From Firmicutes bacterium M10-2 (GTDB lineage Bacteria > Bacillota_I > Bacilli_A > Erysipelotrichales > Erysipelotrichaceae), in NCBI GenBank assembly GCA_000403415.2, contig KE159698.1, forward strand, positions 1 through 64,000: a stretch of DNA of 64,000 nt, read 5' to 3'. Both the position numbers and the translations under genes were made by a program. The notes beneath the pieces are model-generated. The model did not search any database and was not told the origin of the DNA. It saw only the letters and a program-made list of their open reading frames with translations. Positions 31,100 to 43,222 of the stretch are shown piece by piece (position 1 is the first letter of the stretch; the number at the start of each line of letters is the position of its first letter).

Positions 31100-31438
31100 A
31101 TGAAGAACAATGAATTGAATATCGAGATTGGCCAACGATTACGCAATATTCGCATCAAAAAAAATCTGACTCAAGAAGAAATGGCAGATCGAATTTGTGT
31201 TTCATGCAAACATTATGGTGAAGTTGAACGTGGAAAATCTGGATTCTCCTTAGAAAACTGGATTCGTTTATCGACCGCATTTCACATTGACCTCAATTAC
31301 TTGTTCGCGGGTCAAAACACCGATAAAATCGAGGAAGATACAAATTTTTATCTTATTCCTCAACAAACCGAAGATCAAAAAATGCTTTTACAAAACATCT
31401 TCGAATTAATCGAAGAATATGCTGAATTAAAAAAATAA
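31100..31438 (+). CDS. XRE-family helix-turn-helix regulator
   Basis: A 112-residue DNA-binding protein with an N-terminal HTH_3 domain (about 8-62): IGQRLRNIRIKKNLTQEEMAD, then CKHYGEVERGKSGFSLENWI as the recognition helix region. The C-terminus is a short acidic helix, probably for dimerisation. ATG 31100 is preceded by GAGGAGG; earlier in-frame codons are untranslated. It probably binds the inverted repeat upstream and may control the divergent unknown gene (inference). Its stop codon lies inside the terminator that element A has duplicated. Confidence 0.88.
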   Translation: MKNNELNIEIGQRLRNIRIKKNLTQEEMADRICVSCKHYGEVERGKSGFSLENWIRLSTAFHIDLNYLFAGQNTDKIEEDTNFYLIPQQTEDQKMLLQNIFELIEEYAELKK

Positions 31439-31457
31439 AGACCCTCTCGGGTCTTTT
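31436..31457. terminator. terminator copy, left target duplication of element A
   Basis: An 8-bp stem AAAGACCC/GGGTCTTT with loop TCTC and flanking T bases, functional on both strands. The same 22 bases recur at 31649-31670 on the other side of the 191-bp element. Confidence 0.85.
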
Positions 31458-31648
31458 CAGAGTGTTGACAAACTACCTATTTTGAAAAAATTAAATTTCA
31501 ATAAAATAAAAGTGGGTAAAAAGGTCTAAAAAAAGAGTAATATTAGGTACTTAAATACCTCAAATTGCTCTTTTTTTATTCATTTGTGGGAGAAAAATAA
31601 AAAGCTGTGACAAAGCCGATTTGAAAAATCGACTTTGTCAACAGCCTG
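31458..31648 (+). mobile_element. 191-bp MITE-like element, copy A
   Basis: Ends are CAGAGTGTTGACAAA and, inverted, CAGGCTGTTGACAAA (13 of 15 match). It has no ORF. Inside are a bidirectional terminator-like hairpin at 31528-31577 (A7GAG paired with CTCT7) and a 14-bp hairpin at 31608-31640 (TGACAAAG..CTTTGTCA). It is identical over all 191 bases to 43006-43196 in reverse orientation. It is flanked by perfect 22-bp direct repeats that are whole terminators. The structure fits a non-autonomous transposon moved by a transposase encoded elsewhere. Confidence 0.85.
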
Positions 31649-31670
31649 TAAAGACCCTCTCGGGTCTTTT
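31649..31670. terminator. terminator copy, right target duplication of element A (prs terminator)
   Basis: Identical to 31436-31457. It lies eight bases after the prs stop on the minus strand and works as its terminator. Confidence 0.85.
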
Positions 31671-31678
31671 CTTTTCAT

Positions 31679-32641
31679 TTAATCTTCTTCGTGAATCGCA
31701 GACTGTAAAGCATTGGAAAGCGATTTGTTGTGTTCGATCGCATCGATCGTTGCAGCCAAAAGCGGGGCTACAGAGATTACTTTCATTTGAGGATAATCTT
31801 CATGATTCTTTGTTTGATCAATCGTATTCGTACAAATAAATTCTTCGAGATTAGCTCCTTTTAATCGTTCAACAGCCGGCCCGGAAAGAATAGCATGAGA
31901 ACATGCGGCATATACCTTTTTCGCTCCCTTGTTTTTTAACATATTGATTCCGGAAGTCAATGTTCCTGCCGTATCGACCATATCATCAATAATAATGGCT
32001 GTCTTTCCATTGACATCACCAATCAAGTTCATGGCTTCAGCAACATTTGGTTTCGGACGACGCTTATCGATAATCGCAAGAGGGGCATTGAGCATTTCCG
32101 CAAGACGGCGTGCACGCACAGTTCCTCCATGATCCGGGGATACGACCACAACATCATTTCCTGTTTCCACAGTTTTGATATATTCTCCAATTAAAGGCAA
32201 AGTCGTGATGTCATCCGCCGGAATATCGAAATAACCTTGGATTTGTGTTGCATGAAGATCCATGGTAATCACGCGATCAGCTCCGGCACGTTCTAATAAA
32301 GAAGCGACCAGCTTTGAAGAAATCGGTTGACGAGGTTTCGCTTTACGATCTTGGCGGGCATATCCGAAATAAGGAATGATGGCATTGATCGTTGCTGCGC
32401 TGGCACGTTTGCATGCATCGATACCAATAAGCAATTCCATCAAGTTATCATTGACCGGTTTGTTCGTGCTTTGGATGAAATATACATCTTTTCCGCGTAC
32501 AGATTCTCCAAGTTCGACAAGAATTTCTCCGTCGGCAAAATGTTTGACTTCACATTTTCCAAGTTCAATCTTGAGGATGTCGCAAATTTGCTGCGCGAGT
32601 TCTTTGCTAGAATTCAAAGCGAATACAATAGTTTTTTCCAT
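31679..32641 (-). CDS. prs: Ribose-phosphate pyrophosphokinase
   Basis: Makes PRPP from ribose 5-phosphate and ATP for nucleotide, His and Trp synthesis. The 320-residue protein has normal length with all family blocks: FADGEILVELGESVRGKDVY, YARQDRKAKPRQPISSKLVA, VVSPDHGGTVRARRLA, and the PRPP loop IIIDDMVDTAGTLTSG. It follows glmU by 55 bp, as in Bacillus (gcaD-prs). A terminator duplicated by element A lies just after it. Confidence 0.98.
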   Translation of the reverse strand: MEKTIVFALNSSKELAQQICDILKIELGKCEVKHFADGEILVELGESVRGKDVYFIQSTNKPVNDNLMELLIGIDACKRASAATINAIIPYFGYARQDRKAKPRQPISSKLVASLLERAGADRVITMDLHATQIQGYFDIPADDITTLPLIGEYIKTVETGNDVVVVSPDHGGTVRARRLAEMLNAPLAIIDKRRPKPNVAEAMNLIGDVNGKTAIIIDDMVDTAGTLTSGINMLKNKGAKKVYAACSHAILSGPAVERLKGANLEEFICTNTIDQTKNHEDYPQMKVISVAPLLAATIDAIEHNKSLSNALQSAIHEED

Positions 32642-42979: not shown

Positions 42980-43005
42980 AAAAACAGAAGAAATCTTCTG
43001 TTTTT
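42980..43005. terminator. terminator copy, left target duplication of element B
   Basis: A 26-base palindrome: five A, CAGAAGA, AA, TCTTCTG, five T (12-bp stem, 2-base loop). The same 26 bases recur at 43197-43222. Confidence 0.85.
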
Positions 43006-43196
43006 CAGGCTGTTGACAAAGTCGATTTTTCAAATCGGCTTTGTCACAGCTTTTTATTTTTCTCCCACAAATGAATAAAAAAAGAGCAATTTGAGGTATT
43101 TAAGTACCTAATATTACTCTTTTTTTAGACCTTTTTACCCACTTTTATTTTATTGAAATTTAATTTTTTCAAAATAGGTAGTTTGTCAACACTCTG
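43006..43196 (-). mobile_element. 191-bp MITE-like element, copy B
   Basis: The exact reverse complement of 31458-31648 over all 191 bases, so the two copies are inverted relative to each other and about 11.4 kb apart. It has the same terminal repeats and internal hairpins (bidirectional terminator at 43077-43126). It is flanked by 26-bp perfect direct repeats, each a full terminator, of unrelated sequence to those around copy A. It lies downstream of the oligopeptide transport operon. The 42908-43224 gap holds only this element and the two terminator copies. Confidence 0.85.
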
Positions 43197-43222
43197 AAAA
43201 ACAGAAGAAATCTTCTGTTTTT
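43197..43222. terminator. terminator copy, right target duplication of element B (opp operon terminator)
   Basis: Identical to 42980-43005. It lies two bases after the last gene of the opp operon, so it is the original or regenerated operon terminator. Confidence 0.85.

Follow-up and report, generated by a model that had tools for sequence, protein, structure and literature searches.

A 191-bp non-coding transposon of Firmicutes bacterium M10-2 is flanked by whole duplicated hairpins

How does a short non-coding element come to lie between two identical terminator-like hairpins? The question is raised by a stretch of 64,000 nucleotides from Firmicutes bacterium M10-2 (contig KE159698.1, positions 1 to 64,000; hereafter the window), in which an earlier note had described, at 31458-31648, a 191-bp element with terminal inverted repeats (TIRs) and without an open reading frame (ORF), and had read its identical 22-base flanks as a terminator on both strands and as a target-site duplication (TSD) containing an entire hairpin. 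The coordinates and ends of the element were borne out: the direct repeats at 31436-31457 and 31649-31670 are identical (sequence TAAAGACCCTCTCGGGTCTTTT) and enclose 191 bp, the termini are the inverted sequences CAGAGTGTTGACAAA (left) and CAGGCTGTTGACAAA (right), the TIRs measure 15 bp with 13 positions common to both, and no ORF of at least 80 amino acids with its start and end inside the element was found. The flank repeats fold as a hairpin, for which the terminator scan returned terminator-like tails on both strands, in agreement with the note. A second copy in the window (copy B, minus strand) is 100% identical to the first (copy A) over the 191 bp, and the hairpin duplicated at its flanks is a different one, AAAAACAGAAGAAATCTTCTGTTTTT. 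The features concerned are as follows.

31436..31457, no strand: left TSD copy of copy A, 22 bp, hairpin plus one nucleotide per side, containing the stop of an XRE-like gene (repeat identity, folding)
31458..31648, plus strand: copy A of the 191-bp element, which resembles a miniature inverted-repeat transposable element (MITE) (56 identical full-length genome copies; TIR-bounded)
31458..31472, plus strand: left TIR of copy A, CAGAGTGTTGACAAA (motif CAGNNTGTTGACAAA common to an IS1182-family insertion sequence (IS) of the host genome)
31634..31648, minus strand: right TIR of copy A, CAGGCTGTTGACAAA (sequence at the element border)
31649..31670, no strand: right TSD copy of copy A, 22 bp, hairpin plus one nucleotide per side (repeat identity, folding)
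42980..43005, no strand: one copy of the copy B TSD, 26 bp (direct repeat)
43006..43196, minus strand: copy B of the element (100% identity to copy A)
43197..43222, no strand: other copy of the copy B TSD, 26 bp (direct repeat)

The element is abundant in the host genome (G000; 2.41 Mb, 22 contigs, draft assembly). Its 26-base left end has 62 exact matches there, 28 forward and 34 reverse, while the reversed control of the same 26 bases has none in the 2.41 Mb, and therefore the copies are not due to chance. When a left end with a right end at most 400 bp downstream was taken as a paired copy, 59 were obtained; 56 of the 58 gap-free copies are identical across the 191 bp, and the remaining two represent a 189-bp subtype. 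The recent movement that had been suspected from the identical second copy in the window is supported by these 56 copies. Direct repeats of 18-32 bp without a mismatch, each filled by a hairpin and specific in sequence to its site, flank 53 of the 59 paired copies, and an exact duplication of any length (9-32 bp) flanks 57, so that the flank is a TSD with an entire hairpin at copy A and at most copies genome-wide. Being short, non-coding and bounded by TIRs, multicopy with TSDs, and accompanied in the host genome by an IS with matching ends, the element is a non-autonomous, MITE-like transposon. It was not found in phage records, plasmid records or viral contigs, nor in two congeners of the host. 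If the repeat were instead a domesticated regulatory or terminator cassette, maintained by selection and mobile only formerly, the retention of its length, hairpins and GTGG motifs in relatives from other genera (70-81% identity) would fit; this explanation is very improbable, given that the 56 copies without sequence differences, at sites unrelated to one another, indicate a recent burst and that both congeners examined lack the element.

The paired hairpins could also have another origin, in which tandem terminators pre-existed and the element inserted between them or recombined with them. No evidence favouring this was found, and the 53 different hairpins, each exactly duplicated, argue against it. 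Furthermore, exact empty sites are available for a related IS, an ISEfa7-like member of the IS1182 family in Enterococcus. The linear plasmid pELF_AA94 carries a 1,536-bp ISEfa7-like IS between two copies of AAACGATGCCTATTTAGCATCGTTT, whereas pELF_AA55, which is identical to it over 300 bp on each side, has a single AAACGATGCCTATTTAGCATCGTTT and no IS. Likewise, in a pair of E. raffinosus sequences the occupied site has two hairpin copies and the empty site has one. The hairpin is doubled on insertion of the ISEfa7-like IS, and pre-existing tandem terminators are thereby refuted for this element. For the MITE, one terminator and no element are present at each of the two orthologous window sites in the congener G002, within a region that is mostly alignable at 66-81% identity; the hairpins have diverged, which makes this evidence supporting and not exact. 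The earlier note had named two observations that would contradict it, other copies without duplicated hairpins and two terminator copies at element-free sites. Neither was borne out, the second being seen neither at the empty sites of the related IS nor at the two sites in G002, and pre-existing tandem terminators have next to no probability as an account of the MITE.

The geometry of the duplications was analysed in 81 insertions pooled from four genomes, all with a repeat of 17 bp or more: 53 host MITEs, 13 MITEs of the genomes G054 and G016, and 15 IS copies of G000, G054 and G125. These duplications range from 18 to 35 bp. The best palindrome axis coincides with the exact centre of the repeat in 72 of the 81 insertions and lies at most one base off in six more; the three far-off centres belong to mismatched, bulged or weak stems misread by the ungapped axis search, and folding spans the whole repeat in these cases too. 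When complementarity at symmetric positions was compared with that obtained after the right-hand bases were shuffled among sites, it equalled background beyond the repeat border and at the outermost base of the repeat, and from the second base inward it was 0.89-0.94 against an expected 0.26-0.53 (z 8.7-13). Since pairing starts at the second base, the repeat consists of a stem-loop extended by a single base at either side. The mean folding energy of the repeats is -10.6 kcal/mol, compared with -1.4 kcal/mol for length-matched random stretches of the window.

A genome-wide listing of flanks and a search for an IS with the same ends had been proposed in the earlier note, together with a suspected relation to IS1182, and the search confirmed this relation. 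The host genome encodes an IS with CAGACTGTTGACAAA at its ends, whose 475-amino-acid transposase matches NF033551 (IS1182 family) with 400 bits against a cut-off of 270 and also matches the Pfam families DDE_Tnp_1_6, DDE_Tnp_1 and DUF772. The relatives of the transposase indicate an Erysipelotrichaceae-like member of the Bacillota as host. The flanks of this IS are duplicated hairpins: all five duplications of at least 17 bp among its copies in the host genome are hairpins, and the palindromic targets known for some IS1182 members are thus found here. The end motif CAGNNTGTTGACAAA is common to the MITE and this IS, and was found in 60 of 146 sampled genomes of the bacterial family. For example, G054, the closed genome of a different genus, contains a 190-bp MITE with about 70% identity to the host element, and both this MITE and the IS of G054 duplicate hairpins; G125 and G016 show the same hairpin duplication, and the IS ends of G000, G054 and G125 are of the same type. 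When relatives were picked by transposase sequence only, flush hairpin repeats of 19-31 bp were present at 14 of 24 loci, a count in which L152 and L153 probably represent a single insertion counted twice, two of the hairpins (L155 and L160) are weak, L165 is complex, and L146, L151 and L156 have little upstream sequence. From the ends and from the co-occurrence in one genome, it is most likely that the MITE is moved in trans by the 475-amino-acid transposase of the host genome.

The earlier note had taken the terminator itself to be the target. This holds in so far as the duplicated flank hairpin of copy A is terminator-like; the target, however, is the hairpin as such, and a terminator is not required. 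The copy L052 lies in the palindrome GATTCCTTTAAAAAAAGGAATT, which is not a terminator and through both sides of which a reading frame is open. It could be argued that the transposase senses transcription termination, by way of terminator RNA, a paused polymerase or the context of a T-tract, and not the DNA hairpin, because most insertions lie directly behind genes (by a rough ORF call, 25 are convergent, 26 tandem, 3 divergent and 5 within ORFs) and many sites are flanked by A- or T-tracts. Apart from the palindrome of L052 within its open frame, this is opposed by the orientation of the T-tract, which is not fixed (T on the right at 28 sites, A on the left at 30), and by the distribution of strong hairpins in the window, where six of seven with a stem of at least 9 are already intergenic (the duplicated hairpin of copy B being counted twice). 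The preference for terminators can therefore follow from hairpin supply together with selection against gene damage, and we consider the sensing of termination unlikely. The gathering of MITE insertions after genes fits a large survey in which IS1182 was over-represented between convergent genes (PMC9208149).

Based on these results, the MITE is very probably mobilised in trans by an IS1182 transposase of the ISEfa7-like branch, with the target chosen by hairpin shape and the whole hairpin duplicated. The transposase would recognise a hairpin in the DNA, which is probably extruded as a cruciform, and would join the two 3' ends of the transposon to the target, one on each strand, at a point one nucleotide beyond the 5' foot of each hairpin, after which gap repair would copy the entire stem-loop. 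Most DDE transposases generate duplications of near-fixed length, set by the spacing of the two active sites, and a review by Siguier et al. and ISfinder are said to record variable, sometimes long repeats for IS1182. Here the length of 18-35 bp tracks the hairpin, which suggests that the enzyme acts on a folded target and that the target, not the enzyme, would dictate the length. Strong hairpins being mostly intrinsic terminators, insertions would cluster behind genes, a complete terminator would remain on both sides, and the neighbouring genes would presumably be unaffected. Alternatively, the target might be a single-stranded hairpin on the lagging-strand template during replication. There is precedent for single-stranded hairpin targets in the structure-seeking IS200/IS605 elements and in group IIC introns, and our data fix the joining positions only. 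The dyad is nevertheless the centre of symmetry of the duplication on both strands, for which a double-stranded cruciform is the simplest account, and the orientation of the 28 forward and 34 reverse left ends is balanced, as counted along the draft contigs and not relative to replication. A single-stranded target is thus possible but doubtful.

Several observations weigh against the proposed trans-mobilisation and hairpin duplication. The MITE and the IS are similar at their ends and little beyond, and TIR positions 4-5 differ, so that mobilisation in trans is no more than probable. Four MITE copies have repeats of only 9-15 bp, which are part of a hairpin at L032, L033 and L060 and of no hairpin at L063, and L067 and L068 are without duplication, the surroundings of both being rearranged. 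Some of the IS relatives, for example L147, L174 and L175, lack a direct repeat of at least 15 bp; among the 24 loci, a flush hairpin repeat was not found at L147, L148, L161, L172, L174 and L175. Furthermore, the exact empty sites come from the related IS, and the comparison on the host side consists of the diverged sites in G002. Lastly, the host assembly is a draft, with gaps within some copies.

Some copies are part of larger arrangements. L067 and L066 form a 2.1-kb composite (G000, contig C16, 231.8-233.9 kb) with a shared 32-bp duplicated hairpin at its outer ends, and inside it are an apparent TnpB remnant and a fragment of an IS of the 527-amino-acid type described below. At L034/L035 (contig C1, 356.1-358.3 kb), two MITE left ends face each other across an assembly gap of about 2 kb, with a shared duplicated hairpin outside; this 2.2-kb unit, whose two ends are identical, may represent a larger element. 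The IS copies L198 (G125) and L103 (G000) have unlike left and right flanks, L198 having two different hairpins, as expected for recombination between two IS copies. Both ends of four small host contigs (C11, C13, C14 and C15; L112-L115) read as N, and collapsed repeats are possible there.

At copy A, the insertion lies between two genes.

31100..31438, plus strand: HTH_3 (XRE-like) gene, with its end inside the left duplication (Pfam HTH_3, 44 bits)
31679..32641, minus strand: prs, ribose-phosphate pyrophosphokinase, with its end 8 bp from the right duplication (Pfam Pribosyltran_N, 177 bits)

The XRE-like gene stops at TAA (31436-31438), the triplet that opens the left duplication. The MITE also brings terminator-like hairpins of its own.

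31527..31578, no strand: nearly perfect inverted repeat in the centre of the element; it has A/T tails and resembles a terminator in either direction (self-alignment; RNA fold z -6.6; alignment)
31603..31647, minus strand: right-end hairpin including the TIR, followed by a minus-strand T-tract, terminator-like (sequence repeats, terminator scan, RNA fold)

In the alignment with relatives from other genera, a hairpin occurs at this central position as well, despite differing sequence. GTGG motifs lie on either side of this hairpin, a layout also kept in those relatives, and its retention suggests constraint on the passenger sequence. RNAalifold returned no structure for the cross-genus MITE alignment, probably due to gaps and truncated rows, and we make no claim of covariation.

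Among named elements, ISEfa7 is the closest relative. The transposase of the ISEfa7-like IS is 45% identical to that of the host IS, its ends are CAGACTGTAGACAAA compared with CAGACTGTTGACAAA in the host, and it shares whole-hairpin duplication, with exact empty sites; unlike the MITE, it is autonomous, 1.54 kb long, and encodes its own transposase. Pneumococcal RUP, SPRITE and other bacterial MITEs are likewise short, non-coding, mostly intergenic and presumed to be mobilised by an IS in trans, and SPRITE has terminator-like hairpins, but these elements differ from the host MITE in their ends and target rules. RUP is related to IS630-Spn1. Group IIC introns share the preference for intrinsic terminators, but they are retroelements with an RNA mechanism and are not known to duplicate the hairpin.

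In Staphylococcus, IS1272/TnSha1, another member of the IS1182 family, inserts at hairpins, often terminators, without primary sequence preference, and deletes or replaces the target hairpin with no duplication (PMC4923244, PMC5678879). The MITE differs from this type of hairpin replacement in duplicating the hairpin in 53 of 59 copies. Whole-hairpin duplication was drawn as a hypothetical route for IS1272 (PMC5678879), and the host MITE data match this sketched route closely. According to PMC5678879, a review by Siguier et al. mentions palindromic targets for some IS1182 members, with detailed data lacking.

A second IS1182-like IS of the host genome (L097-L099), with a 527-amino-acid transposase, was rejected as the driver of the MITE on account of its ends, AGGGGCTGTAACG, and of the absence of an evident duplication. 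Over about 125-140 amino acids it is 27-30% identical to the ISEfa7-like group, and it may act in the manner of IS1272. This IS adjoins the right end of the MITE copy L068 (contig C16, about 249.9-252.1 kb), where the right hairpin is missing; this looks like an IS1272-style hairpin replacement, and the site may combine two hairpin modes.

Hairpin targeting by IS1182 relatives was already known; as far as we have searched, the novelty lies in the MITE family, in the large number of insertions compiled, in the rule that the border falls one base beyond the hairpin foot, and in the exact empty sites. Among the passages returned by a term search of a review (PMC10969869), whole-hairpin duplication did not appear. 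As an observed rule it was not found in the literature searched, in which ISfinder and the Siguier review were not included, and priority is accordingly uncertain.

With these insertions, structure-guided integration can be studied on a large natural dataset, and the stem-loop duplication route drawn for IS1272 can be tested directly. In annotation, the hairpins can serve to place element borders and to predict empty sites. Our analysis suggests a route by which a genome may absorb about 60 copies of an element and suffer little damage. It is probable that a branch of the IS1182 DDE transposases reads the secondary structure of DNA and joins at a four-way junction, and that its MITEs, by copying terminators as they insert, would spare the genes of their host.
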